Assembly (NCBI RefSeq): GCF_027595985.1
Contig: NC_073308.1
Span: 18,188,005 to 18,252,004 of the forward strand
DNA: 64,000 bases
Source of the DNA: Sorex araneus
Lineage: Eukaryota; Chordata; Mammalia; Eulipotyphla; Soricidae
Direction: 5' to 3'
Of this stretch, positions 130-61,071 are shown one piece after another. The notes beneath the pieces were generated by a model, which was not told where the DNA came from, made no database searches, and worked only from the letters and a program-made list of their open reading frames with translations. The translations under genes and the position numbers were made by a program. The first letter of the stretch is position 1. Each line of letters starts with the position of its first letter.

Positions 130-834
130 TCAATCCTTTCGAAACCCGGCTTGCTTGCATGGTTGTCCCTCATCTAGTGTTCTGCCTATTTTATTCAGGA
201 TGACTCGAGTGAACAACTTGTAGACGACGGACAACAGGCAGATTGGGTGATAGTTGCCGATATTGTGGATGTCTCCCTTCTTGTACAACAGAAAGGTCCT
301 GCTGGTTTTCCATTGGGATGGAACCTTGCATACAGACAGGTAGTGTGTGAAGAGCTGAGCCACTGTATTGATGAGTACTGGCCGCAGATTCTTCAAGTGT
401 TCAGGTCTGACCTTGTTTGGACCGGGTGCTGTACGCTTCTTTAACAACAAAATGATGTGTCGGATTTTGGAAGGGAGGACGTTGGGAACGACATATCCAT
501 CCTGCGGAATTTGGTATGTGGGCAGGCGGAGATGGCTGTCGAAGAGATCCGAGTAGAAGTCGTAAATAATCCTCTCCATTGCCTTTCTGGAAGATGTGAT
601 AGATCCATCAGGACATCGGAGGGCAGTCATCTTGGTCTTGTAGTTGGTGAAGGACAGGCGAGTGTTGCAAATACCTTTCCCAGTTTCTGCTGCATCAGCC
701 AACACTACTGCTCTTCTTGCTTTGAAGTCTTCCTTTATCGCTTCTCTGCACAGCTTTGCGAGCTCGGACGTTAGCTTGTGATTGCCTGAGGCTCGTGCCA
801 AACAACGTTGGTGAATGAGCTTGAGAATTTCCAA
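130..834 (-). pseudogene. RTE reverse transcriptase fragment (N-terminal fingers region)
   Basis: This is an open frame of 234 codons in the RTE LINE. Its C-terminal half holds the conserved APGPNKVRPEHL block and the region LYKKGDIHNIGNYHPICLLS, where RTE proteins usually have an NYRPI motif; here Arg is replaced by His. The frame stops after AGFRKD because of a frameshift. The RT continues in other frames down to position 1 with a recognisable LKKAFDSVETE segment. No functional enzyme is expected. Confidence 0.8.
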
Positions 835-1004
835 GGACAGTCATCTGTTTGTGTCTTTCCCTCTCTTGGCATTGTTTGTGCAGTCATGGAGTTGTTGAAC
901 CAGTCGATTGTATTCCTCGTGGATGTTGTCAATGACGGCATCTTCCCACGTTGCCACAGTAGTGCCAAAGAGCTCCCAGTTGGTGGTCATTCTGGGAGTT
1001 CTCT

Positions 1005-1181
1005 CTTTTTTTTTTTTTTGCTTTTTGGGTCATACCTGGCAATGCACAGGGATTACTCCTGGCTCTGCACTCAGGAATTACCCCTGGCAGTGCTCAGGGG
1101 ACCATGTGGGATGCTGGGAATCGAACTCGGGTCGGCCACGTGCAAGGCATAAGCCCTACCTGCTGTGCTATTGCTCCAGCC
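1005..1181 (-). mobile_element. SOR-type SINE, short form, inserted in the RTE LINE
   Basis: The poly-T end is at 1005 and the tRNA-like head (TGTGCTATTGCTCCAGCC read on +) at the right. A B-box-like GGGTCGGCC...AATCGAACTC region is visible. It is flanked by a 13-bp target-site duplication (CTGGGAGTTCTCT) at 992-1004 and 1182-1194. It interrupts the endonuclease coding region, so it inserted after the LINE. Confidence 0.95.
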
Positions 1182-1304
1182 CTGGGAGTTCTCTTCTTAA
1201 ACTTAAACTTTGCTGACCTTTCTCCCCATCTGTGAAGTAGAATTTTGTAAGAAGGAGACGGTGGTCCAATCCCATTTGAAATTTTGGGACAACAGTGACA
1301 TCGG

Positions 1305-1925
1305 TCAGACAAGACCTTCGATTGAATATGATGTGGTCAATTTCATTGTGGAACTGTTCACCAGGAGACTCCCATGTCCAACGTTTAGATTCAGCCTTCT
1401 GGAACTGTGAGTTGCCATGGATGGTCTTGGCCGACATGATGAACTCAGACTCTCACCCTGTTCATTCCATTCTAGGCCATGTGTTCCAATGTGGAGTTCT
1501 TCAGGTGACCTTCTCGGTCCTATCTTGGCATTAAAATCACCAACAATGATCTTGTATAAGGTGTGGTCTTCTTTATAGAACTTCTCCAGCTCCATGTAGA
1601 ACTTCTCAATTTCTTCTTTATCATACTTGGACGTTGGTGCATAGACGACGAAGATAGAAACTGCCGGCAGTTAGCCACATCTATTCAAGTGTAATAGTCC
1701 GATTTGAGTTGTTAGGCATTTGAATGAATCAATGCTCATGGCCAAGTTTCTGTTGACAAGGACACGATGCCACCAATGCCTCTTGTCGCATGTTCCAAGG
1801 AACAGTTCTTCTCCAGTGTTGAAAATGGCGTGATGTGACTGATGCCTTCTCGTTTTGGTCAGACCAATGATGTCATACTTGATCTTCTGCTCTTGCAGCA
1901 TCAGGTCCTTGATGGATGCATCCAA
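1305..1925 (-). pseudogene. RTE apurinic endonuclease domain remnants
   Basis: Two broken frames encode pieces of an exonuclease III-like endonuclease. At 1925-1671 there is an N-terminal block with KYDIIGLTKTRRH, where active elements have a LTETR catalytic Glu, here read as Lys. At 1595-1518 there is the GDFNAKIG motif. The C-terminal block with NEIDHIIFNRR and GLDHRLL continues at 1437-1195. This domain nicks target DNA in LINE retrotransposition. Frames are broken between the blocks. Confidence 0.75.
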
Positions 1926-2054
1926 TGTATGTGCGTTGAAAGTACGGTCATTTTAGTCCTTCTTCATTTTGACAGTCTAGTTCATCCGTGAGATTTTATC
2001 AGCCTCATCCTTCTTAACACTGGCGTATTGGGGGCTCTTTTGGTGTCAGGCAAA

Positions 2055-8394: not shown

Positions 8395-8409
8395 AAAATT
8401 GCTTTCTTT

Positions 8410-9682
8410 TTTAAAATTTAAGTTATTTATTTTATTGAATCACCATGTGGAAAGTTACAAAGTTCTCAGGCTTATGTCTCAGTTATACAATACTCAAACA
8501 CCCATCCCTTCACCAGTGCACATATTCCACCACCAAAATCCCCAGTATATCTCCCACCCCTGCCCCCCCACCCCCACCTGCGTAACTGATGAATTTCACT
8601 TCATTTTCTCTTTACCTTGATTACATTCCATATTTCAACACAAAACTCACTATTGTTGTTGGAGTTTCACCCCAAAAAAGACAGCCCTACTGCCAAGGAA
8701 GCATTTGATAATTTGTTTTCCATTGCTCAGAATGAAAAGATATGAAGTCCCGGCTGTTCCAAGTACACAACTCTTTTTTTTTCTCCTTCCCATGCCATCA
8801 AGTTTGTGCCTGCTTAATAGTCTTCATAATATGGCAGGTGCCACGCTACTTCTCCCCGAAAAGGGGGAAAAAAAAACGAGAAAGAAGGATATTTCCTCTA
8901 CTCAGCTGGCGTGGGGCTATGGCTTAGTTCACAGTCCAGAGACATGGCTGCAAGCAGTTTCTGGGACCAAAAGTGGTCTAGTTGGCCTCCGGATCCTGCA
9001 TCAAAGCGGCCGCACAAAAGTGTGGCTACCCGGGTCGAATCTTGGTGGAGTGCGCACTGGTATCGTCCCTGGCCCGAGACTGCCCAAGCATCCCGCTGTT
9101 CCAAGTACATAATTTTTTTCTTTCTTTTTTCTTTTTTCTCCTTCCCGTGCCACCAAGTTTGTACCTGCTTAATAGACCTCATAATTAGTGGACGCCACCC
9201 TGCTTCTCCCCAAAAAGGGAAAAAAACCGAGAAAGAAGGATATTTCCTCTCCTCGGCCGGCGTGGGACTATGGCTTAGTTCACAGTCTAGAGACATGGCT
9301 GCTACTTTGATTACCTTCAATATTTCAACAAAAAACTCACTATTATTGTTTGGAGTTTCCCCCCAAAGTCAGACCTGCTAAAAAGGAACCGTTTCACATT
9401 GCTGACAATTAAGAGATATTAGGTCTGTCGCGGCCGCATGGTTTTGGATTTCTGTATAAAGTCCAGGGAAAATTTTGCCAGAAATTGCATCACTGCAAGC
9501 TTTTACTTCCGTTTTGTGGTGCTCATAAGATGGAAAAGCCTGGAGAGAGAAACCCTATTCCCCTGGTGCCGCATGGGGCAGTGGCTCAGTTCACAGTCTA
9601 GAGGCATTTCTGCGAGCTGCTGGTGTCCAAAGTAGTTCAGTTGGCCTCTGGGATCATGCTCGTGCAGCAGTGGAAAGGCCCC
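8410..9682 (-). mobile_element. Composite L1-tailed retroelement, copy 1 (full length)
   Basis: A 15-bp target-site duplication (AAAATTGCTTTCTTT) at 8395-8409 and 9683-9697 bounds a 1.27-kb element in reverse orientation. Its 3' part (8410 to about 8700) is shared with local L1 3' ends (TTATTGAATCACCATG..., CACCCATCCCTTCACC...). Its 5' terminus, read on minus, is GGGGCCTTTCCA. Inside is a tandem duplication: about 8747-8951 recurs at about 9090-9302, with GGCTTAGTTCACAGTC and GAGACATGGCTGC in both. A second partial L1-tail-like segment lies at 9303-9420. No long ORF, so non-autonomous. Confidence 0.75.
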
Positions 9683-9697
9683 AAAATTGCTTTCTTT

Positions 9698-12658: not shown

Positions 12659-12717
12659 AAACTAGTAAGTCCTTTAGCCTAGCCTGTCCCTTCTTTCCCC
12701 TTCTTCTTTTCTTTTTA

Positions 12718-13235
12718 TAAAATTGAATCACCATGAGATATACAGTTACAAAGCTTTCACAACCAGGTTTCAGTCATACTGTGTTCCAACACCCGTCTCT
12801 CCACCAGTGTACATTTCCCACCACCAATGTCCCCAGTATCCTTCCCAACACTCCCACCCCACCAATACCCCACTCCCCTTCTGCCTCTATGGCAGACACT
12901 TTAATTCTTACCCTTACTCTACTTTGGGGCATTATGGTTCACAAAACAGATACTAAGAGGCCATCATGTTTGGTACTTAACCTACTTTGAGCACAAATCT
13001 CCCTTCCAGAGCGATCCCTCAATCATCATTGTAATAGTGGTCCCTTCTCTATCCTAACTGCCGTATCCTCTAGAACTTGAGGCAGACTTCCGACCATGGG
13101 CCAATCCTTTTGGGCCTAATTTTTACTTTCCTTGGGTGTCAGTCTCATATTGTTATTTATATCCCACAAATGAGTGCAGTCACCCTGTCCCTTTGTACTG
13201 ATCATTCATTTATGACTTCAATGCCATACCTCATG
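12718..13235 (-). mobile_element. L1 3' end (ORF2 terminus and 3' UTR)
   Basis: Reverse-oriented: A-tail complement TAAAATTGAATCACCATGAG, then the L1 3' UTR (CACCACCAATGTCCCCAGTA) and CAAATGAGTGCAGTCA, which matches the plus-strand L1 copy near 19060-19075. 5'-truncated and diverged. Confidence 0.75.
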
Positions 13236-15109: not shown

Positions 15110-15927
15110 TTTTTTAAAAAAAAATTATTGAATCACCATGAGAACAGTTACAAAGCTTTCCAGTTTGTCTCGGCTATACAATGAGAAAACACCCCTCCCT
15201 TCACCAGTGCACATTTTCCACCACCAAGAACCCCAGTATACCCCTGATCTCACCCCTCCCCCTGCCTGTTTGGCAGAAGATTTCCACTTTACTCTCTTTC
15301 CACTTTGGTCACTTTCAATATTTTGACAAAAGATCCGCTGTTATTATTTGGAATTTTCCCCAACAATTAGACCTGCCGAAAAGTCATCATTAGATAATTT
15401 GTTTTCTATTGCTGGTTATGAAGAGCATTTGATGTCATGCAGCCGCAATAGCAGCCGTACGATCTTGGGTTTCTGATATTTAAGTAATAAGTCTGGAGGG
15501 ATTCCTGCCAAAAGCTGCTGGATTCTGAGATTGGTTTATGTGCCTCTGGGATCATGGCCGTTTAGGAGCCAGAGGAGCAGTTCGTGGGTGGCAACTTGGG
15601 GCCTCGTCATGGCGGGGAGAGGGGCCAGTTCCACCTCCCAACCCATGAGGCCCCACTAATCTTGTCACTGCAGTCTCATACCTGGCTCTCCGATAGGCTC
15701 TGAAAGATGGCGGCCATCATGCCATCCCCACCAAGGGAGCAGGAAAGGCAGAAGGGACAAACAACCTTCTGCACACGGGGTGGCATGGCAGCATAGTTTA
15801 ACTCACAGTCCAGATGCTGCTGGATTCCGAGATTGGTTTGTGTGCTTCTGGGATCATGGTTGTTCAGGAGCTGGAGGAGCAGTTCCTGAGCGGCAACTCG
15901 GGGCCTCGTCAGGGTGGGGAGAGGGGA
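15110..15927 (-). mobile_element. Composite L1-tailed retroelement, copy 2
   Basis: The L1-like 3' end (TTATTGAATCACCATGAGAA, CACCCCTCCCTTCACCAGTG) is followed by the composite body. A block at 15515-15624 recurs at 15817-15926 (offset 302 bp; CTGCTGGATT, GAGATTGGTTT, TGGGATCATGG, GGGCCTCGTCA in both). This end lacks the GGGGCCTTTCCA start, so the copy is 5'-truncated. It lies in inverted orientation to copy 3. Confidence 0.7.
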
Positions 15928-16049: not shown

Positions 16050-16116
16050 TCCAGACCTTGATGCATAGGGTAAGACTGTGTCTCACTAGAATATGCAAAC
16101 AGAAAATCTATTAGAG

Positions 16117-17122
16117 GGGCCTTTCCAGCAGGCACCACAAGCCGGAGAATGCTCCGGACCCCAGACTGGGCCCACAACACCAGGGTGCCAGACGGAGAAG
16201 GTACAGCCAGCACGTCTTCTCCAGATGGAGCCCCAGCGACACTGAGCTTCTACTAACACGGCTTGGGTATTCGGGACTGGGACATCTCCAACCGCGGGGC
16301 CGCGCGACCTTTCCTAATATACAAAAAATATACTCAGGAATGGCTCCACCACCCCTGAGCGTCCATTATTCCAGAGGCACAGAAACCAATCTCAGAACAC
16401 AGCGGCTTCTGGCAGATATACTCCTGGACTCTGAATTAAGCTATGGCCCCGTGCAGCCCTGGGAAGGGAAGGGTTTCTGTCCCTTGGCCTTTTCCCCACT
16501 GGACAGCATGGCGACCGCCACCGTTCAGAACCAACTGGACAGAGAGGTAGGAGTTTGCAGTGATGGGATGGGATGCATGGGGAATCTTGCGATGGGGGAA
16601 GCAGAACCGGCCCTGTCTCCTGCCCAAATAAGGCCCTGAGCGGTCACCCATGAACAGCTCTTCCGCTCCTGAACAGCCATGATCCCAGCGCCACAGAAAC
16701 CAATCTTGTAATGCAGTGGCTGCTGGCAGAAATACCTCTGGACTTAATACCAGAATTTCAAAACTGGGAGGCCCCTTTCATGACCGTGCAACATCATATG
16801 CTCTTTATGACCAACAATAGAAAACATACAATCTAAGATGCCATTCCAACAGGTCTGACTGTTGGAGGAAAAACTCCAAATAATGATAGTGAGTTTCCTG
16901 TCGAAAATTGAATGTAATCAAAGTAAGGAAAGAGTAAAGTGAAAAATCATCTGCCACACAGGCATAGGGGGAGTGGGAGGGGTGGTATGCTGGGGTTTTG
17001 CTGGTGGAACATGTGCACTGGTGAAGGGATGGGTGTTTGAGCATAGTATGATTGAGACTCAATCCTAAAAGCCCTGTAACTGTTCTCACGGTGACTCAAT
17101 TTAAAAATAAATTAAAAAAAGA
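16117..17122 (+). mobile_element. Composite L1-tailed retroelement, copy 3 (full length)
   Basis: A perfect 16-bp target-site duplication (AGAAAATCTATTAGAG) at 16101-16116 and 17123-17138 bounds 1006 bp. It starts GGGCCTTTCCAGCAGG, has a GC-rich 5' half, and contains two diverged copies of a block with CACAGAAACCAATCT (16378 and 16692, offset 314 bp). It ends in an L1-like 3' UTR (GGATGGGTGTTTGAGCATAG, then an A-rich tail). The frame at 16340-16639 is short and unlike any known family. The structure is that of an L1-mobilised non-autonomous element. Confidence 0.8.
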
Positions 17123-17451
17123 AGAAAATCTATTAGAGACTACAGGAAAAAAGGCCCTTTTACATGACAGAAAACTTGTTCATGGAGAGGGTTCCTTTCT
17201 GAAATGACAGCCTGAGGCCAGAGGATGCTGGGTAATTGCTGTCTAATAGGTGCTGGTGGCCAGTATGGTGGCAAAAGCAAGAGGCTAGAGAAGCCCAGTG
17301 TCACCTGAGTTGATCTGGAGAAGGTGTGGAGAAGGCTAGGAGAGCTTGGTGGAACCAGGAAAAAGGTGTCTTCTTACAATGTCAATCTAGTGCCCTCTAC
17401 TGTCAAGATGAATATCCCACTGGTAGGATATAGCAAAACAAAATCTATATC

Positions 17452-18704: not shown

Positions 18705-19440
18705 TCCAGTAACCTTTTTGGAAAACAATATGGGGCATTCCTTTAAAAACTAGAAATTGAGCTTCCATATGACCCTGCAATAGCACTTCTGGGAACATAT
18801 CCTGAGGGTGAAAACAGCACAGTAGAAGTGACATATGCACCTGTATGTTCATTGCAGCACTGCTCACAACAGCCAGAATCTGGAAACAACTCGAGTGCCA
18901 GAGAACAGATGACTTGTTAAAGAAACTTTGGTACATCTACACAATGGAATACTATGCAGATGGCAGCTGTTAGGAAAGATGAAGTCATGAAGTTTGCTTT
19001 AAAGTGGACAGTCATGGAAAGTACCATGCTAAGTGAAATGAGTCAGAGACAGACATAGAATGACTGCACTCATTTGTGAAATATAAAATAACATGAGACT
19101 GACAACCAAGGATAGTAGAGACAGAGCCAGGAAGATTGCTCCATGGTTGGAAGCCTGCCTGATGAGCTGGGGGAGAAGGCAGTCAATCATAATTGGAGGG
19201 ATAATTTGGGGTGGGAGATGTGTGCTGAAAGTAGGTAAAGGACCAAATGTGATAACCTCTCAGTATCTGTACTGCAAACCATAATGACCAAAAGTAGAGA
19301 GAGAGTATGAGGGAAACTGTCTGCATAGAGGCAGGGAGAGGGGTGGGATGGGACAGAGATACCAGGGATACTGATGGTGGAGGGATGGGTGTTCCATCAT
19401 TGTATGACTGAAACTCAAACATGAAAACATTGTAACTATT
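18705..19440 (+). mobile_element. L1 3' end (ORF2 terminus and 3' UTR), 5'-truncated
   Basis: CACAATGGAATACTATGCAG, the AAGTGAAATGAGTCAGAGA block and the preceding CATATGACCCTGCAATAGCA are the classical L1 ORF2 C-terminal coding region. The 3' UTR has GGAGGGATGGGTGTTCCATC and GACTGAAACTCAAACATGAA. A long-form SINE follows directly at its 3' end. Confidence 0.88.
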
Positions 19441-19445
19441 TCACT

Positions 19446-19697
19446 GTAGCACTGTAGCACTGTTGTCCCATTGTTCATCAATTTGCTCGAGTGGGCACCA
19501 GTAACGTCTCCATTGTGAGACTTGTTGTTACTGTTTTTTGGCATACTGAATACTCCACGGGTAGCTTGCCAGTCTCTGCTGTGTGCGTGGGATACTCTCG
19601 GTACCATTGCCAGATTCTCTGAGAGGGATGGAGGAATTGAACCCAGGTCGGTGACGTGCAAGACAAATGCCTTACCCACTGTGCTAGTGCTCCAGAT
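19446..19697 (-). mobile_element. Long-form SOR SINE (tRNA head, RTE-like body, ACAGTG tail)
   Basis: Left end: CACTGTAGCACTGTAGCACTG, a tandem tail. Then GGGCACCAGTAACGTCTCC, GTTACTGTTTTTTGGCATAC, GGTAGCTTGCCAGTCTCTGC and CTCTGAGAGGGATGGAGGAA, then the SOR head (CCCAGGTCGGTGACGTGCAA ... TGTGCTAGTGCTCCAG). The body is absent from short-form copies. It was probably moved by an RTE rather than an L1 machinery; that is inference from the tail and from the segment shared with the LINE at 2055-2185. Confidence 0.85.
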
Positions 19698-20760: not shown

Positions 20761-23700
20761 GTAAGGGCCGGGACGGCGCGCTGACCGCCCCGAGGCGCCG
20801 CCGGGCGAGTGCGGGAGCAGGGGTGAGCCCGCCGGCCGCCCGTGGGGCTCCCCCTGTCCCCGTGGCTGCGAGGGGCCGGGGCGCGGGGCCGGCGGGGAGT
20901 CCGGACGCCGCGGTGCTGGGGAAGCAGCGCTGTCTCCTGCAGGGCCGGAACCCGCCGTCCAGTGCTCGCGGGTGGACTGCCGGGGCAGTGGCGTGGCGGA
21001 GCGGATTGTGGCAAAAGCTGGAGGAGGGTAGGGGTGAGAAGTGGGGAAGGCGCGGAGCACGGCGGCCGAGTCGGCAGTGAGCTGGGGTTCACGGGGAGTG
21101 CAGCGAAGAGGGCCGAGAGGGTAGGTGCGTGCGTGCAGGTGACGCTCAGGGACCTGCCGGCGATTCATCGGGGTGCTCCTCGGAGCGGGTTGGATACAGT
21201 AGCAGAAGATAAGGCGCTCGCTGGGGCTGATGGAGGAAAGGAAAGGTATTATTGCTCGTGTGTGACCCTTCGCCCATCTGCCCCTCTGCACTGTCGTTGT
21301 GCTAGCTTCCCTCTTAGGAACTGCAGCCGACTGCTCTCCCGCCCCCTCCTTACACAGCCCCAAGTGCACTATTATGAATCCTTTCTACTACCTGAAACCC
21401 ACCTAAGAGCCATTCGTTATTTCGTTTTGGTTTGGGGGCCACACCAGCGGTGCTCAGGGCTGACTTCTGCATCTGCCGTCCGGGAACCGTATGTAGTGCG
21501 GGAATAAAGCCCAACTGGCCATGCATGCAAGACAAACGCTCTACCCCCTGTACTGTCTCTCAGGCCTCCCATTCATTCACTTAAAATAGATCGTGGGGCT
21601 AGAGAGATAATGCAGCTGGGAAGACCCTTGACTTAGATGTAGCCCTTTTAGGTTTGATCCGCCAGGACCCCCAAGCGCAGTCACGTATAAGACATGAGAA
21701 CAGCCAGATGTGCCTTAAAACCCCAAACTAAACAAGACAAGTAAAATATTTCATATCTCAGACCTGCTAGTGAATCTGCTCAGGAGGATTCAGTCACTGC
21801 CCCAACTGAATTGACATACCAAATGTTTGGCCTGTGTGATCCAGCTCTTGCGGCCATCCTCAGTCAGCTTGCTGCTCCCTGATCAGCAACCCTGGCTGGC
21901 AACGGTTTCCCTCTCCCCCCACCCAGACATTAAGCCTGCCCCTGGCAACCTTCATTTGAAACGTTAAACCTGTCCAGGTGCACTGGGGCCTTTGGAAAAC
22001 CCTTGAAAAACCCTTCAGGGCCTAACCTGTCTCCACCCCTCCCTTCTTTCACTCCCAGTCCAGAGACACCTCTCTGACCTCTCTAGCTGCCATGGCACCT
22101 GGACATTCTCGCAGCCTTCATGGATTCACTTGCTATTCTATTTTCTTATTTCTCAGCATTTTCCAAAACACCTCACATATTTGCCCTGTGTCTCTCCCAG
22201 CTGGAGTTATGTACAAAAAGAGGCTGTTCCTGGGAGCCCAAAAACACACAGCCAAAACACCATCTGCACTCCTATGTTCATTGCACAGCTGTTCACCATA
22301 GCCAGAATCTAGAAACAACCTGAGTGCCCAAGAACAGATGAATGGATAAAGAAACTAGCACATCTACACAATGGAATACTATGCAGCAGTCGGGAAAAAT
22401 GAAGTCATGAAATTTGCCTGTAAATGGATGGACATGGAGAGTATCATGCTAAGCGAAATGAGTCAGAAGGAGAGGGACAGATACAGAATGACTGCATTCA
22501 TTTGTGGTATATAAAAACTATGTAGTAGAAGACTAATACCCATGGCTAGGGAAAACAGGAGTTAGGAGGATATGTGTGGGGCTGAGGGTAGGTAAGATAG
22601 AGAAGAGACCAGTATGACAATAATAGCTGGGAATGATCACACTGGACAAGAACTGAGGGTTAAAAGTAGGTAAAGGGATAGTCTTGATAACATTTTGGTA
22701 TCAGTATTGCAAACCACAATGTTCAGAAGTGGGAAGGAGAGAGGAGGGGGGCAACAGGAGAAAAGCGCCTGCCATCGAGGCGGGGTAGGGGTGATGGGAG
22801 GGTCTTACCCTACAGGAGAGGACACTGGTGCTCAGAAATGTACGCTGGTGGAGGGATGGGTTTGGAATACAGTGTGACTGAAACCCAATCACGATCTGCT
22901 TTGTAAGGATATATCTCACAGTGATTCAATACAAAAGTTAAAAAAAAAATGGCTGTTCTAGTCCATGCATGTAAAAACACTGCCTGTTTCATGGTGGATC
23001 CTTCTTGGGTATTTAGGAGAGTAAGTGGATGAACCCAGGTTTCCAGGACAAAAAGGAAACTTGTCATTAAGCTCCTGCACTGGCCCGATGATTAGAGGCC
23101 TCAGCTCTTCTCAGAGAAGTTGAGAGAAACTGTTGAGCAGGGTTTACAACTTGTGGTTTTGATTTTCTTCAACTCAGTACTTTAGTTTCATGATTCCCAA
23201 ACTCATTCGGCTTTCCACCCCCTTTTCAGAAAACATACCACTCAGAAAAATATATGGGGCTGGAGTGATACTACAGTGGGAAGGACATTTGCCTTGAACG
23301 CGCTGAGTCAGGCTCAATTCCCATGATGGAAGAGAACTTCTTGCCCTTCTCTACCTTCTTTTCCCCCATGGCACCCGCTCTGGCTTTGCTTAGACACCTT
23401 TTCGTCCAACTAGAGTCAGAAGCCCAGGAGGGCCCTGATATTTGTAGTCTATGGGTGAGTATGTGGTTGTGTGTCTCTGTGCATGTGGTTCCCACATGGT
23501 TCTTGGAGCACCATAAGGAGTGATTGCTGAGTGCAGAGTCAGGAGTAATCCTTGAGCATCACCGGGAGTGGCCCAACAGGCCCAAAAAAATTTTTTTTAG
23601 AGAAAGAAAAATACAGGCCCCTTCCCACATGTAACTCCTCCCATGCAGTTGTACCACCAGTTTGAAATGAGTTGGTGATTGTAAAGCCCTTGGTGTATGA

Positions 23701-26700: not shown

Positions 26701-29700
26701 TTTGGCGGCGGCAGTGGCCGAGGAGGAAGGAGTGGGCACCGATCTTTCGGGAGTTGGTGGGGCGAGGGCAGTGTATGAAACAGGTTCATCCTGCAGCCTC
26801 TTTTCCGGTGCCCTGTGCTTCTGGGGTCTGTAGCTGGGTGCGGAGGTGACCCAGCATGTGAGCAGCCCCCGAAGGAAAGCAAGCCTCTGGTCTGGTTTGG
26901 AAGGAAGGAAGAACTAGCTGGAGGGGGTCCAGAGGGGCAAGAAGCCCCAGGCTGCCTGTGTCTCCCTGGACACCGAGCAGGCTGCAGCATGCAAGGCACT
27001 TCCTGGGACGAACACTAGATGTCAGTGTTGTCCTTTCCCATCTGACCAGGAGCCGCGGACTTCTCAGTGTCCCTCCATGCCCCATGTGCTTCCCTGACGC
27101 TAGCTCCTGGGCCACCGGGCTGCCTTCCATTTCGGTGCCTGTTAGAAGTGCTTTTCAGAGAATCGTGTGTGCAGTTAGTGTCTGGGCAGGGCTTCTGACT
27201 CAGGAGTAAGCCTTACCCGCTTGAACTGCGCTGTCCAGCTGCTGCCACCCCACGCCCTGCTTCCAGACACTTTGCAGGAGGGGAGAATTGTGTTCCTTTG
27301 GAATCAGGGATGTAATGTTTGATATGCTGCTAATGCTACTAGCTTTTATTGGGTAAGATTGGAGTGAATTTTTTCACACTGTGGGCAGGAATGTGGTTCA
27401 TGTACTGACTGTATTTGCACACCAGACCTGCTCCTGAGCCGTTACGCTATCTCTGGCTTGTGAATTTCTATTTAAGCAGTGTTTTTGTTGTTTTTTACAG
27501 AACAGACAGCCTTTCAGGGCAGTAGACTATTTTTCTCAGTATTTTCTTTAATATTTTTTGTATCAGCTCTGAGCATCTTGGTACTCAGGGTCACTTCTGG
27601 CAGTGCTCATGGCACTGTATGTGTTTGTTTTTAAACCAGTCCTGGCTTGTGGATATGCTAGATCCCCTCACCCCCCATGGTCCTTGTCAGTACACGTCAC
27701 CAGCCACCTCAAAGTAGGCTTGTTTGGGACCTTGGCTATATCTCTGCCGCCTGCTCTGAGCGTCCTCCTCTGAGCATGCCTGGGCCAGCTCTTCCAGGGC
27801 CGGTGTGGTGGGAGGGGGCGCTCAGTCCCTGCAGCTGTGGAGTCAGGAAAGGCGGTCTTGTAGGACTGAAGGTAGATGGGGAACTATTTGCTCTGTGCAG
27901 GATTCGGGGCGAGGGGGGGGCGGTGGCCAGGGTCTCGGTAATCCTGGGGGCTGCAAGTTTGACTTCCTGCTCCTAGATCCTGTCGGAAGGAAAGAGGATC
28001 CCCTTCCTTCTGATGATGAAGCAGTCGAGGCCGACAACGAGGAGGAGTCTGAGCCGCAGGCTGCCAGCAGCCTTGACAGTTCTGCAGAGAGCACCCTGGG
28101 AGCCAGTGGGGGCTGGGCAGACGCCATGGCCAAGATTCTTAACAGGAAAATTCCTAAAAGCAAAGCCACCATTCTGGTCAAAAACAAAGAGCTGGAGAAA
28201 GAAAAAGAGAAGTTAAAGCAAGAGAGACTGGAGAGAAGAGCGCAGGTGAGCCTCCACTCGGGCCCAGCAGGCGGGAGCCCAACTCCTGCCCCGCCCTGCC
28301 CCCAGCACCCCGCACCCTCTGCTCAGGAGATGTCCCGCTTCTGTGGAGGGTGGGTGACCACGGGGAAGGTCGGAGAGCTGGTCGACTCCCTTGGCTGTGC
28401 TGATGTTCTAATCATCCAAGTGGCCAGAGGGAGGTATCAGCCCTCTTATTTATGTACTATGTATTTAATATATTTTTATTGAAGCACTGCGAGATAGACC
28501 TTTTCAAAGCTTTACAGAGTTGTTCATGATTAGGTTACAGTCATACAGTGTCCCAGCACCCATTCCTCCAGTGTACATTTCCCAGGACCAGTATCCCCAG
28601 GTTACTCCCTTCAACCCTCCTGCCTCTATGACAGGCACCCCTCTCTCCCTTTCTCTCTTTCCCTCCCTCCCTCTTGCTCTTCCCCTCCCTCCCTCTCTCC
28701 CTCTCCCTCTCCCTCTCCCTCTCCCTCCCTCCCTCCCTCCCTCCCTCCCTCCCTCCCTCCCTCTCTCTCCCTTTCTCTCTCTCTTTCCCTCCCTCCCTCT
28801 TTCCCTCCCTCTCTCTTTCCTTCCCTCCCTCCGTGTCTCTCTCTCTCTCTCTCTTTCTCTTTCTCCCTCCCTCCCTCTTTGTACTTTTGCTTTGTGATCT
28901 GAAATACAGATACTGAAAGGTTATCGTGTATATCCCTTTACCTACTTCAACACTCAGTTCTTGTCCAGGGTGATCATTTCCAACTATTATTGCATGCTGG
29001 TCCCTTTCTATCTTACCTACCCTCACCCCACACACAGTTGTGGTTGGTTCCAACCACTGACCGGTCCTCCTAGTCCTTTTTTTCCTCTGGCCATGATATT
29101 AGTCTTTTATTACATATTTTTTTATATACCACAGGTGAATGGAGTTGTTCTATATCTGTCCCTGTCCTTCGGGCTCATTTCATTCAGCACGATACTCTCC
29201 ATGTCCATCTGTTTATAGGAAAATTTCATGACTTCCTTTTTACTAGCAGCTGAAATACTACGGTATTCCATTGTGTAGATATGCCATATTTTTTTTATCC
29301 TGTTGTCTGTTCTCAGCATCAGCCCTTTTAAAGTCAAGACTTTCTGGGTCATGATTTTTTTTTTTTCCGGTTGAGTTCAATATAATGATAATTTGGTTGG
29401 ATTATGAACTTTTAGGATCATTGTCATTGTTTTTTTGCTAACAATCTATTCATAATGTAAACTTTAAAGGTAATATCGGGTTGACTATAGTTCTGAATAC
29501 CAGTGATATAATTGCTAAATAGTACGTACAATAATAAGGTTTTTTAATACTTGGTGCTTTTTTAAGTGAAGTATTTTTACATCTAAATATTTAGTTTATA
29601 TACATAAATATATATAATTTATATATATAAACAAAATATGTGTGTGTGTGTATATATATGCATATATATATAGAGAGAGAGAGAGAGAGAGTTAGTTTTG

Positions 29701-42500: not shown

Positions 42501-45074
42501 GGATCCCTGGAGATTTGTCCCAACAGGTCATAACAGGTCAGTGGGCCAGCCCCACCCTGAGTGTTTGAGTCAGTCCATCTGGATTGGGGCCTGATCTTGA
42601 ATTTTCTTAAAGTGAAATTAAAGCCAGTGCTGCTGCTCCAGAGACCACACTTGGAGAACCTGATACCTGGTAGCATGAATGCTTTCCTGATACCTGGTAG
42701 CATGAATGCTTTCCTGATACCTGGTAGCATGAATGCTTTCCTGATACCTGGTAGCATGAATGCTTTCCTGATACCTGGTAGCATGAATGCTTTCCTGATA
42801 CCTGGTAGCATGAATGCTTTCCTGATACCTGGTAGCATGAATGCTTCCCTCCTCTGGTCATGCTTTACATTGTCGCATCGGATATCTGTGACTGCCCTCC
42901 TTACCTTGAGGTCAGGACAAGCGTGGAGGCCCTCAGCATCAGCGTTTGGGCCAGCAGCTCCTTCCCCTGGTTGCCATCTTCCGTGCTCTCTGAGCCTTGG
43001 ACTCACATTATCATTCTCCCTGTCTTTGTACCTGCCCATTTCTTCTGACCTTGCCATTCACTAGGCAGGTGGAGTGAGTCAGTGCATGGGTGGGCTACAG
43101 ATGGGAGGACCCTGCATGGAGGTGGATCCCCTGGGGTCTGCTCTAGTTGGGAGCACAGGGACTGCCTGGGGGACACGATTGTCCAGACATGAAGAGTAGA
43201 CCACGGGGTCTCTGCGACCATGAACACCCATGCCGGACGCATGTCCTGGACAGAGGAAGCATGTACCTGGGACACCGGGAGGTATGGAGCCATTGCTCCT
43301 CCCTGGATCTCCGTTTCTTGGAATCCATGTTTTCTTGGTTGAGGCACATACCCTGGGTTGGATCGAGGAGAGCGAGTGGCCTCTGTTCAGCTGGGTACCT
43401 GTCCACTGGTAGCAGAGTGGGGTTCGCGTGTGGGTTAAGCATGGAACCAGCTACAGATCTGGGCTGTGCTCCTCTGGGGAGTTTCAAGAGTGACCGTCCC
43501 AGCTCCTTGCTCTGCCAGTGTCACGCGGTGTTGGGACTGCCGGGCTGTGGACTGGGAGCAACCCTGGCCGTATCGCATACAGAGTGCTCTGACTTAGCGG
43601 GCCCGTGCTGAGCTCTGCTCCCCTCTGCCTTCCGCATGCTCTGCTTGGCTCTCTGGCCCCCAGGAAGGTGTGTTGGCCAGTCCTGCTCTCTGGCGCACTG
43701 TCCTGCTGGACAGGAGAGGACTTTCTGGTGGCTGTCATTAGTTGGTTGTCATTAGCTCAGCAGAATTTTACAAGTGACCTCCCACAGTCCCACCTATGTC
43801 CTCCGTATCTTTTTTCTTAAAAATTGTTTGATTTTGATCCCTGGCCCCACACATGGTCCCTTGGGCACCGCCAAGATTGACCCCAGAGCACAAAGTTAGG
43901 AGTCAGGCCTGAGCAACGCCCTACATCAGCAGCAGCAAAAACTGTTCTTCATAGGGCGAATAGGCCTCCTGAAGATGACATGCTTTCTTACCAGATGTCA
44001 TGGGCTCTGCATAGTTAGATCACCCAAATTTGATCCTACAAATGGGCTCATGAGGGCAGAGTTGCAAAAGCCGGCATATATTGTGTATACAGAAAAGCAG
44101 TGCCGGGCGCACGGTTTTCAGTATTTGCAGATTGAAGGAAGAAGTCTTGGTCGAGTGTAGATTGTATTCATGCCACAAGGTGGTGGTGTTGTACCATGAA
44201 ACCAGAGACTCATTTTTGGGTTCTCTCACAGGTCTGCCTAAATCCCACGTATAAACAAACTGAATGGACTGCCTGTTGTGGCTGTTGACCCAAATCAGTT
44301 ATTTATAGGTTTAGCAGGAGGTTAGTTTTCTGATTGTGATAGGTAGTGACATCATGACCCACATAAAGAACATTTGTTTCAAATTTTTATCAGATGTTAA
44401 TAAGATAACATCTGTGCAGGTTAACATAATGCCTGGTTGCTTTCCTTTTCTCTCCTTTAGCTAGAGAGATAGTATAGGAGGTGTACTACCAGGAGATACT
44501 GTGGTGCTCCCTAAACAGTGCTCAGGTAGCTCCTTGAGAAGAGTCCGGAATAACCACTGGCAGGTGTAGCCAAGGGGGCTCTCCTTCAAATTTCTATTTG
44601 TGTAAAAGGTGTTTTTTTTTTTTTTTTGGTAACTTGTCCCTGAACACTAGATAATACTGTAAATTTATTTTGATTGTGAGGTTTTAAAATTGACATCTAA
44701 TTATATTTTCTCAGTGCATGAAGAGAAAGAAAAATTTGTTTCCATTATGTTTGTGGGGAGAGGAGGTGTTAAATGTTTCATTAGCCTATAACTCTTAACT
44801 TCATCTTTGTGTATATGTGTTTGGTGTGGAAATAAAGCCACTCTCCAGTTGGTCTTGGCCAGGTTCCTGCCGGGAAGCAGTGCTGGTCAGCTTGAGAGTT
44901 TGGCCTTTCTCTGAGTGAAACTGATGTGTGTTTCTGCGCCCTCCCCAGAGCACAGGAAACTCAGAAGAGGGTCCCAGCTGGAAGATCCTGCGGGACGACT
45001 TCATGATGGGCAGTGCCATGAAGGACTGGGATCGGGAGAGCGACGGGCCTGCTGCGAGTGACCCCGACACCTGA
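20616..45074 (+). CDS. RRP15: RRP15, ribosomal RNA-processing protein 15 (five coding exons)
   Basis: Joining 20616-20760, 27977-28245, 31531-31628, 33853-34048 and 44949-45074 gives 834 nt, 277 aa plus stop, with GT-AG junctions and consistent phases throughout. The product follows human RRP15 (282 aa) along its length. It is a nucleolar factor of pre-60S particles; the yeast homologue is needed to mature 27S pre-rRNA toward 25S and 5.8S. Visible parts: a basic stretch at residues 14-27 (nuclear/nucleolar targeting), an acidic stretch at 38-46, a charged helix at about 115-165 rich in Lys/Glu/Arg (coiled-coil-like), the conserved block [13 protein letters not shown] at 172-184, and a C-terminal ILRDDFMMG motif. 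The start ATG sits in a YY1/CpG context. The N-terminal third is the most diverged part, as expected for this family. Recognition is by protein similarity from memory. Confidence 0.96.
21424..21567 (-). mobile_element. SOR-type SINE, diverged
   Basis: GGGGGCCACACCAGCGGTGC, AAAGCCCAACTGGCCATGCA and CTGTACTGTCTCTCAGGCC in reverse order of the consensus. Internal deletion. Confidence 0.8.
21595..21740 (+). mobile_element. SOR-type SINE, diverged
   Basis: GGGGCTAGAGAGATAATGCA head, TAGGTTTGATCCGCC B-box-like region and an A-rich end. It forms a convergent pair with the previous copy about 30 bp away. Confidence 0.7.
22190..22950 (+). mobile_element. L1 3' end (ORF2 terminus and 3' UTR), 5'-truncated
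   Basis: CACAATGGAATACTATGCAG, AAGCGAAATGAGTCAGAAGG and TACAGAATGACTGCATTCAT mark the ORF2 end. The 3' UTR ends CTCACAGTGATTCAATACAA and an A tract. Confidence 0.88.
23256..23600 (+). mobile_element. SOR-type SINE split by about 160 bp of foreign DNA
   Basis: The head (GGGGCTGGAGTGATACTACA ... GGCTCAATTCCCATGATGG) ends near 23329. The 3' half (CCCACATGGTTCTTGGAGCA ... GAGCATCACCGGGAGTGGCC) resumes near 23491. The middle 23330-23490 is not SINE. An AGAAAAATA-type duplication flanks the whole. Confidence 0.8.
23885..24065 (-). mobile_element. SOR-type SINE, short form
   Basis: Consensus order in reverse, with a perfect 15-bp duplication (CTGGCATTTGTATTT) at 23870-23884 and 24066-24080. Confidence 0.93.
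24263..24422 (-). mobile_element. SOR-type SINE with internal deletion
   Basis: A T-rich tail runs straight into GGGTCACATCTGGCTCTGCA, missing about 25 bp of the 3' part, then a consensus head. 16-bp duplication with one mismatch (CTGCTCTATCACTCTT / CTGCTCTGTCACTCTT) at 24247-24262 and 24423-24438. Confidence 0.93.
25970..26050 (+). mobile_element. MIR fragment, probable
   Basis: GGACTGTTGTGAGGTTTAAATGG then TAAAGGT resembles the MIR 3' part. Short, so tentative. Confidence 0.4.
26320..26445 (+). mobile_element. SOR-type SINE, 3' half
   Basis: CACCACCAGGAGTGATCTCC and GAGTGCAGAGCCAGGTGTGG match the 3' half. The head is scrambled. Confidence 0.6.
27548..27650 (-). mobile_element. Possible degraded SOR-type SINE
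   Basis: TTTTTTGTATCAGCTCTGAG, ACTCAGGGTCACTTCTGGCA then GTGCTCATGGCACTGTATG. Head missing. Confidence 0.35.
27977..28245 (+). CDS. RRP15: RRP15 coding exon 2
   Basis: Acceptor CTCCTAG at 27970-27976, donor GTGAGC at 28246. Residues 49-138. Holds SDDEAVEAD, the conserved [13 protein letters not shown] and [18 protein letters not shown]. Enters in phase 1 and leaves in phase 0. Confidence 0.95.
28445..29345 (-). mobile_element. L1 3' end carrying an expanded CT-rich tract
   Basis: TTTATTGAAGCACTGCGAGA begins the reversed 3' UTR. GGCTCATTTCATTCAGCACG and CATTGTGTAGATATGCC are the complement of the ORF2 terminus. The polypurine region of the 3' UTR has grown into a 240-bp tract (28640-28880). 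Confidence 0.85.
28640..28880. repeat. (CCCT)n/(CT)n microsatellite inside L1 3' UTR
   Basis: Pyrimidine-only mixed tract. Leu/Pro/Ser or Arg/Glu/Gly frames through it are artefacts. Confidence 0.95.
29585..29692. repeat. Compound AT/GT/GA microsatellite
   Basis: TATATA blocks, (GT)7, more TA, then (GA)n just before a SINE. Confidence 0.9.
29693..29855 (-). mobile_element. SOR-type SINE, diverged
   Basis: TTTTGGGGCCACATCACAGT, CTCCCGGCTCTGCACTCAGG, GGATCACTCCTGGCAGGACT in reverse order. The head is poor. Confidence 0.75.
30523..30702 (+). mobile_element. SOR-type SINE
   Basis: GGGGCCCAGGCATAGTACAG head, CATCCCATATGGTCCC, GAGTGATTACTGAGTGCAG, tail AAAACAAAACAAAAACC. Confidence 0.85.
31531..31628 (+). 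CDS. RRP15: RRP15 coding exon 3
   Basis: Acceptor ATAACACAG, donor GTGAGA at 31629. Encodes the highly conserved [20 protein letters not shown] and NLQRIAT, ending two bases into an Arg codon. Confidence 0.96.
32160..32330 (+). mobile_element. SOR-type SINE, diverged
   Basis: TTTGCACATGGCTGAGCCTG, CAATCCCTGGCACTACAT, GCCAGGAGTAAGCCCTGAGT and an A-rich end. Confidence 0.75.
33041..33240 (+). mobile_element. SOR-type SINE, young short form
   Basis: Consensus head AGGGGCTGGAGCTATAACAC and 3' half. The long interrupted A tail is about 45 nt. Imperfect duplication AAAACTTGGTGCAC / AAAACCTTGATGCAC around it. Confidence 0.94.
33853..34048 (+). CDS. RRP15: RRP15 coding exon 4
   Basis: Acceptor TTTTGTAG, donor GTAAGG at 34049. 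Encodes [20 protein letters not shown] and [20 protein letters not shown], the core of the RRP15 domain. Residues 171-236, leaving in phase 0. Confidence 0.96.
34645..34880 (-). mobile_element. Long-form SOR SINE
   Basis: CACTGTCATCCTGTTGCTCA, GGGCACCAGTAATGTCTCTC, GTTACTGTTTTTGACATATC, GGTAGCTTGCCAGGCTCTGC, CCGGGCTCTCCGAGAGGGGC, then the SOR head. Same architecture as 19446-19697, with a single tail unit left. Confidence 0.87.
35100..35262 (+). mobile_element. SOR-type SINE, diverged
   Basis: GTTCTGTCCCTGGCACTGCC, GGAGTGACCCTTAAGCAG, GGGAGTAGCCCTGACTC. Head weak. Confidence 0.6.
36530..36590. repeat. (GA)n microsatellite
   Basis: About 25 GA units with one interruption (GATGAGA). Confidence 0.97.
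37430..37605 (-). mobile_element. SOR-type SINE, diverged, with internal repeat
   Basis: CCCAGTGGTGCTCAGGGGCT, CTCAGGGGTCCACTCCTGGC, CAGTGCTCCAGGGAGTGAAC. Lacks a clean head. Confidence 0.6.
38467..38645 (+). mobile_element. SOR-type SINE, diverged
   Basis: GTAGAGACAGTACAGTGGGC head, GTTCAATCCCTGGCATCCC, CCACCAGGAGTGATAACCTG, GAGCACTGCTGAGTGTGGCC. Confidence 0.8.
39150..39232 (+). mobile_element. Second tRNA-derived SINE type
   Basis: AAGAGGTAGCTTAAGCTGTA, TGAGGCCCTGGGTTTGATCC, then a short A tail. Simple tRNA-plus-tail structure, unlike SOR. Confidence 0.5.
40580..40790 (+). mobile_element. MIR SINE, nearly full length
   Basis: GAGCGGTGTGGTATTGCTAA, GAACTTGGAATCAAATGG, TTGCTTCACTCCTTTGAGCC and AAAGTGCTTGGCACTTGAGC run through the MIR consensus in order. 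An ancient mammalian repeat. Confidence 0.75.
42661..42849. repeat. 27-bp minisatellite, seven copies
   Basis: A unit starting TGATACCTGGTAGCATGAAT repeats at 42661, 42688, 42715, 42742, 42769, 42796 and 42823. The first six are identical and the last lacks one T. Because 27 is a multiple of 3, both strands stay open, giving nine-residue peptide repeats. I see no sign that it is translated. Confidence 0.98.
43828..43940 (+). mobile_element. SOR-type SINE, 5'-truncated
   Basis: TTTTGATCCCTGGCCCCACA, ATGGTCCCTTGGGCACCGCC, then a poor 3' end. Confidence 0.7.
44457..44582 (+). mobile_element. SOR-type SINE, diverged
   Basis: AGCTAGAGAGATAGTATAGG head and GGAATAACCACTGGCAGGTG. Lies less than 500 bp upstream of the terminal RRP15 exon. 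Confidence 0.65.
44949..45074 (+). CDS. RRP15: RRP15 coding exon 5 (terminal)
   Basis: Acceptor CTCCCCAG, stop TGA at 45072-45074. Encodes [20 protein letters not shown] and [10 protein letters not shown], then a short acidic tail ending DPDT. The tail is several residues shorter than in human. A second AG two bases downstream would shift the frame, so 44949 is the right junction. Confidence 0.95.

Positions 45075-60204: not shown

Positions 60205-61071
<867 letters not shown>

Follow-up and report, generated by a model that had tools for sequence, protein, structure and literature searches.

A dispersed, gene-less composite element with an L1-like tail in the shrew genome

A 1-kb segment in the genome of the shrew Sorex araneus raises the question of whether it is a mobile element and, if so, of what kind. 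The segment, termed copy A, occupies positions 16117..17122 (plus strand) of a window of 64,000 nucleotides, the whole stretch of DNA analysed here. Its limits are set by a target-site duplication (TSD) and by other near-full-length genome copies among the best-scored search candidates. Flank comparison places the 16-bp duplication at 16101..16116 and 17123..17138 (both plus strand), and its sequence, AGAAAATCTATTAGAG, is identical at 16 of 16 positions in the two flanks, which confirms the perfect duplication reported in an initial annotation of this DNA. A begins with GGGCC, has a GC content of 62% over its first 200 bp, and carries an A-rich tail at its 3′ end. The initial annotation had also described its 5′ and middle parts as lacking a long open reading frame. 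In agreement, the longest stop-free sense frame spans 174 codons, and a Pfam search with that frame, together with one frame of a second copy, B, returned nothing at E ≤ 0.1. A is one copy of a gene-less mobile element dispersed widely in the shrew genome.

Two relatives of A lie in the same window. Copy B (8410..9682, minus strand) represents a sister subfamily and consists of repeated units followed by an L1-like tail; two of its stretches are 81% alike over a 215-column alignment. The separate 15-bp duplication first attributed to B was recovered by eye at 8395..8409 and 9683..9697 (plus strand) as AAAATTGCTTTCTTT, with 15 of 15 positions identical. Copy C (approximately 15116..15926, minus strand) belongs to an older subfamily and contains two M2-type units at a spacing of 302 bp, a core, and an L1-like tail.

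The genome searched comprises 2.406 Gb and contains the window. With A as the query, the best 40 of 9,371 candidates, window copy included, each cover at least 930 of the 1006 bases, and the other 39 are 88-90% identical to it. With B, 33 of the best 40 of 11,360 candidates (32 besides B itself) cover nearly all 1273 bases, and the near-full-length candidates other than the window copy show 86-91% identity. The best 40 of 8,169 candidates for C include 39 others at 79-88%. Because the scored candidates are the best of all candidates, long copies of high similarity are over-represented in these lists. A 31-mer from the middle of A has 1,687 sites in the genome (825 + 862) at up to three mismatches, and a 31-mer across a B-specific junction has 2,069 (1,036 + 1,033); the reversed control gave 0 for each. 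The genome search and copy count that had been proposed for A thus establish it as multi-copy. The 3′-end patterns had no exact match in viral and prokaryote contigs, a result that carries little information, as a shrew-type SINE pattern is also absent from the viral contigs.

Flank repeats are more frequent around A copies than between swapped flanks. Repeats scoring at least 11 are present in 11 of 21 A copies compared with 7 of 84 swapped flank pairs, and repeats scoring at least 13 in 8 of 21 compared with 2 of 84. The remaining 10 of the 21 copies have no flank repeat scoring 11 or more. In an uncontrolled count (L068 left out), 12 of 17 duplications start with purines of the AAA-, AAG-, or AGA-type, the exceptions being L011, L019, L027, L070, and L071. 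The target of the L1 endonuclease is TT/AAAA, and the purine-rich duplication starts fit the preference of this enzyme.

Internally, A consists of several modules, all read on the plus strand. The first is the last and 3′-shortened copy of a monomer, M1 (element positions 1-183; window 16117..16299), upstream of which some copies carry more M1 monomers of ~300 bp. It is followed by a tandem unit, M2 (element 216-529; 16332..16645), and by a second, partial M2 (about element 530-640; 16646..16756), which are recognised as a direct repeat (D1). Next comes a core that is common to A, B, and C and was not found in a full young L1 retrieved from the same genome (16757..16919, approximate boundaries), and finally an L1 3′ UTR-like tail with an A-rich end (16920..17122). 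The M2 pair is 75% identical over 99 bp at a spacing of 314 bp in A, and 86% identical over 117 bp at a spacing of 302 bp in C. TRF found no array within 16117-17122, and hence no VNTR with short units of tens of bp. In the A consensus, the CpG observed/expected ratio is 0.83 at positions 1-183, compared with 0.35 for the window. The consensus also contains an AATAAA close to its end. A SNORD105-like covariance match at window positions 16638-16724 (plus strand) is sub-threshold, at 23.6 bits against a gathering score of 45. It scores lower, ~20 bits, in the two further A loci that show it, and was regarded as a chance match.

The origin of the tail is indicated by comparison with four local L1 3′ ends, which were picked by eye via their ORF2 C-terminal remnants; these remnants are similar to the C-terminal end of ORF2 in the full young L1. 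These are an L1 3′ end at 12702..13182 (minus strand) and three L1 3′ ends with ORF2 C-terminus remnants at 18832..19447 (plus strand), 22261..22949 (plus strand), and 28464..29314 (minus strand). A profile built from the four matches A at element positions 804-1001 (E 7.7e-27), B at 1105-1258 (E 1.5e-23), and C (E 3.4e-24), so the L1 3′ UTR-like 3′ part described earlier is found in three of three copies. The matches are confined to the last ~200 bp of each copy, with two extra ones at E 0.96 and negative scores. The full young L1, which has an ORF1 frame of 351 codons, an ORF2 frame of 1286 codons, and a 3′ UTR, likewise has only the tail in common with the three window copies and the A consensus (67-71%; search to E 0.1). 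ORF1 and ORF2 of this one L1 have no match to the element body at E ≤ 0.1, which agrees with the initial view that the 5′ and middle parts correspond to no L1 coding region. The layout proposed at the outset, a GC-rich 5′ module, a tandem block, and an L1 tail, is borne out by the GC-rich start, the 314-bp-spaced pair, and the profile-matched tail.

The 5′ end of the element is more variable than the fixed terminus that was originally assumed. Part of that assumption stands, since there is one common start among several. However, insertions begin near +1, about 10 bases upstream, or inside an upstream monomer. Duplications placed the start in 12 of 21 A copies, with none fixed in the other nine. 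Five copies, including the one in the window (WIN), start within ~6 bases of +1 (the others are L010, L014, L019, and L022), two start ~10 bases upstream (L015 and L009, the latter with a repeat score of only 10), and five begin within the monomer before it, ~55-231 bases ahead of +1 (L011, L016, L020, L024, and L027). For B, the start coincides with GGGGCCTTTCC or lies a few bases from it in three copies, namely the window copy, L072, and L068 (there in its upstream monomer), whereas L070 and L071 start ~40 bp upstream; L069 showed no convincing duplication. Among the best-scored loci, an extra piece corresponding to element positions 1-183 lies upstream in 8 of 40 for A, and an extra 5′ piece of B in 19 of 40 for B. 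The linking sequence is an M1 monomer of ~297 bp that ends in ...CGCCATCTTGCCACAACCAGCAGTGAAGAATCC ahead of +1, and a 29-mer of this ending has 614 sites (279 + 335) at up to three mismatches, with 0 in the control. The extra upstream monomers in some copies therefore make the 5′ end monomeric rather than single or fixed.

The monomer ending can include a YY1-like core, CCATCTTG. Of 21 A copies, 7 have this core in the 60 bp that precede +1; many insertions are thus without it. A perfect YY1-type core, GCCGCCATCTT, is also present in C at 15704..15714 (minus strand). At up to one mismatch, GCCGCCATCTT has three sites in the window against a mean of 0.7 in shuffles, and because 7 of 100 shuffles reach three sites, the motif in C is weak evidence by itself.

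A and B are different, sister subfamilies. They have only about the first 12 bases in common at the 5′ end, and B places its own 5′ monomer ahead of a core and tail like those of A and C. Accordingly, the initial description of A and B as a real unit holds in that both are multi-copy, but not in the common 5′ start, which is limited to those ~12 bases. The core and tail are common to A, B, and C, and A aligns with C over 811 columns at 70%. C is 5′-truncated relative to its own relatives. Two C-type copies that were extended upstream contain M1, which is 68-75% identical to that of A, followed by two M2 units, the core, and the tail; this order of parts therefore predates the A burst. One of the two is flanked by a 16-bp duplication, AAGAAAGTTCTAGTTA (by eye), and has inserted next to old L1 ORF2 sequence, which forms the left flank. 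Four C-type copies, as first cut, yielded no convincing duplication. The 5′ end of C was also considered as a fixed terminus and rejected, since the pile-up of match starts there reflects the query start and the two extended copies carry M1. In the window, a SINE follows C, which has a possible imperfect TSD (by eye, uncontrolled). A tree of the tails, based on 14 sequences of ~150 bp with few L1s and selected copies (L076 dropped for having no anchor motif; L068, L069, and L074 left out), separates the L1s from A, B, and C with support of 89 (IQ-TREE) and 0.93 (FastTree), and the branching among A, B, and C is poorly supported (44). The mean non-CpG K2P divergence of 21 A copies from their own consensus is 0.038 (0.028-0.049), a value that is biased low.

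The element is a multi-copy unit with TSDs, mostly purine-rich duplication starts, a monomeric 5′ end, an L1-like tail, and no long open reading frame. A, B, and C probably form one lineage of non-autonomous retroposons copied in trans by the L1 machinery. The best reading is that this lineage is long-lived, composite, and SVA-like in design, and not an SVA by its parts. In the A- and C-type layout, at least one M1 of ~300 bp precedes two M2 units ~300-314 bp apart, a short core, an L1-like tail of ~200 bp, and an A-rich end. RNA polymerase II may initiate in the tandem 5′ monomers; these can end in the YY1-like CCATCTTG core, a putative YY1 site. The polyadenylated RNA would then be recruited by L1 proteins via the L1-like tail and poly(A), that is, mobilised in trans. 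Nicking by the L1 endonuclease at TT/AAAA-like sites, followed by target-primed reverse transcription, would produce duplications of 11-20 bp. More tentatively, the shrew lineage may have independently built and kept an SVA-like Pol II composite system outside primates, a proposal that is about as open to doubt as to acceptance. Under this proposal, a non-L1 body with tandem promoter monomers would have been fused once to an L1 3′ UTR, would have given rise to three or more subfamilies that differ in their 5′ modules, and would have gone on producing copies next to L1 from the time of C to that of A.

Other origins have to be weighed against a lineage of trans-mobilised composites. The most serious, although unlikely, is that the element derives by internal deletion from an older or unsampled L1 lineage, retaining a 5′ UTR of tandem monomers (M1 and M2) and the 3′ UTR and losing ORF1 and ORF2. 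In its favour, the 3′ end is L1-like, and the monomeric, CpG-rich 5′ end with its YY1-type core resembles the mouse L1 monomers described in the available text of two studies (PMC11602158; PMC9022269). Additionally, the shrew genome contains at least two L1 5′ UTR types, so promoter replacement seems to happen. The L1s used for comparison come from a search with the Pfam ORF1 model, which gave 150 scored matches of 13,300 candidates, from which 30 loci were taken. Of these, 27 had a placeable ORF1 start and 650 bp or more of sequence ahead of it, and the L1s are 87.5-100% identical to the young copy. Sequence shared between L1s extends ~300-550 bp upstream of ORF1 in 26 of the 27, further in a few pairs, and 13 bp in L048; the two or more 5′ UTR types, both GC-rich, were seen among those inspected (L042, L034, L037, and L049). 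Several results speak against the deletion. A profile of the 27 upstream regions, whose positive control reached 4e-181, has no match at E ≤ 10 to M1, B, C, or the A consensus, and BLAST of M1, old M1, and old M2 against the 30 ORF1 loci gives only L035, downstream of ORF1. Queries with A, B, and C match only three of these loci: L035, downstream of ORF1; L043, in the flank and on the opposite strand; and L038, where a B-like tail lies 860-1,050 bp upstream of ORF1, outside the shared 5′ UTR. On the M1 side, 40 distinct loci were listed; none was seen leading into L1 ORF1, and 38 appear to belong to A elements. These 38 comprise 32 loci assessed by match coordinates alone, with a partial monomer next that mostly ends near 180, as in A; one known A match; and five of six fetched loci, of which four continue as A and the fifth, L063, is an A element interrupted by an L1. 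The body is also without a match to either ORF of the full young L1. An internal deletion of an autonomous L1 had been named at the outset as one finding that would refute a composite origin; for the sampled L1s, similarity of the element to the 27 upstream regions and to the one full young L1 does not go beyond the tail. A common origin of its 5′ part with an L1 5′ UTR finds no match in these 27 L1s, and because all lie within ~12.5% of the young copy, an extinct L1 source keeps some probability. For the non-L1 body, deletion within an L1 of the kinds sampled is a less likely origin than an ancient fusion whose product has for long followed a course separate from L1.

Two further explanations are far less probable. 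SINEs that carry an L1 tail are a recognised type, a point in favour of a Pol III chimera with a 7SL-, tRNA-, or 5S-derived head and an L1 tail. However, no Rfam family reaches its gathering score in the window, the sole match in A at E ≤ 1 is the SNORD105-like one, and the length, GC content, and ~300-bp unit spacing are unlike those of a Pol III SINE, which makes such a chimera highly improbable. The ~12-base identity of the A and B 5′ ends could suggest that they are unrelated chance composites, produced by separate template switches and forming no family. This reading is refuted by the copy counts and retains next to no probability: numerous copies in the genome keep the order of parts seen in A, numerous others that seen in B, and the core and tail recur in A, B, and C.

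Many of the 150 listed ORF1 matches sit in 351-codon open frames. At L035:3046-3288, an M1 monomer (76%) starts where the L1 ORF2 match stops, probably an element nested in the L1. The reverse arrangement is found at L063, where an L1 (88-93% to the young L1) is nested in an A element that resumes behind it. The M1-ORF2 join at this locus had been considered as a chimera or as an L1 with an M1 5′ UTR, and was rejected, as the flanks show a nested 5′-truncated L1 and the junction is unique. In this region, covered by L063, L066, and L067 (C2:315941600-315945250), the 5′-truncated L1 sits at the M1/A boundary of the A element, with a duplication visible by eye in L063 and L067. M1 runs into unrelated sequence in L064, and at C3:69224641 it is followed by an inverted piece.

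Among known systems, SVA is a non-autonomous composite of ~1-2 kb with a tandem internal block, high CpG content, no open reading frame, an A-tail, and L1-type TSDs. Its tandem block consists of short VNTR units, and its 3′ end is an ERV-derived SINE-R. HAL1 (half-L1) is a non-autonomous, L1-dependent element that retains ORF1. The shrew element resembles HAL1 in being non-autonomous and, by the proposed mechanism, L1-dependent. Unlike HAL1, it has no match to ORF1 of the one full young L1 in A, B, C, or the A consensus at E ≤ 0.1. Like SVA and its relative LAVA, the shrew element is composite, non-autonomous, A-tailed, CpG-rich, tandem-repeated, free of a long open reading frame, and flanked by L1-type TSDs. 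This likeness applies with the body being non-L1 relative to the sampled L1s and with 11 of the 21 A copies reaching a flank-repeat score of 11 or higher. The two differ in their tandem units, which in the shrew are ~300 bp apart and 75-86% alike; the 3′ end of the shrew element matches L1 3′ UTRs. Rfam scans of the window and A loci gave no match to a 7SL/Alu-like part, a feature of SVA. The parallel with primate SVA drawn in the initial annotation therefore holds for the layout but not for the parts compared, with no 7SL/Alu match in these scans and no short-unit array.

SVA (SINE-VNTR-Alu) has kin in hominoid primates, LAVA, PVA, and FVA, and VNTR composites are called hominoid-primate-specific in the available text (PMC4432496). 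The shrew belongs to a different host order. As in the shrew element, L1 sequence is present in LAVA. The 5′ monomers find their closest description in the mouse L1 5′ UTR, where the Tf, Gf, and A types have a variable number of tandem units and a YY1-type core according to the accessible text (PMC9022269; PMC11602158). By this description, the shrew element is alike in its variable-number tandem 5′ monomers and YY1-type core, and differs in having monomers of ~300 bp with no ORF1 or ORF2 seen downstream. No description of such a shrew element was found in the open-access literature consulted, including the available portions of three articles (PMC6542046; PMC4476161; PMC13174262), a scope that excludes repeat libraries. 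If the proposed reading is true, the shrew would harbour a second, independent SVA-like lineage, two subfamilies of which each number well over a thousand copies that can still be recognised. Such a lineage would allow testing of the design parts for L1 trans-mobilisation, namely tandem GC-rich repeats, an L1-type promoter, an L1 tail, and poly(A). The insertions would also serve as presence/absence markers for shrews.

The window contains other features besides these copies. A decayed LINE at 133-1952 (minus strand) is RTE-type by eye, and one of three frames searched has a weak match to Exo_endo_phos_2 that falls short of the curated cut-off (E 0.0037). The available text of one study reports horizontal sharing of a shrew RTE, RTE1_Sar, with nematodes (PMC6542046). 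The start of the TGF-beta-2 coding sequence lies at 60262-60750 (plus strand; phmmer to PDB chain 8fxs_A, E 2.7e-55), and a minisatellite with a 27-bp unit, 7.1 copies, and 99% matches occupies 42659-42850.
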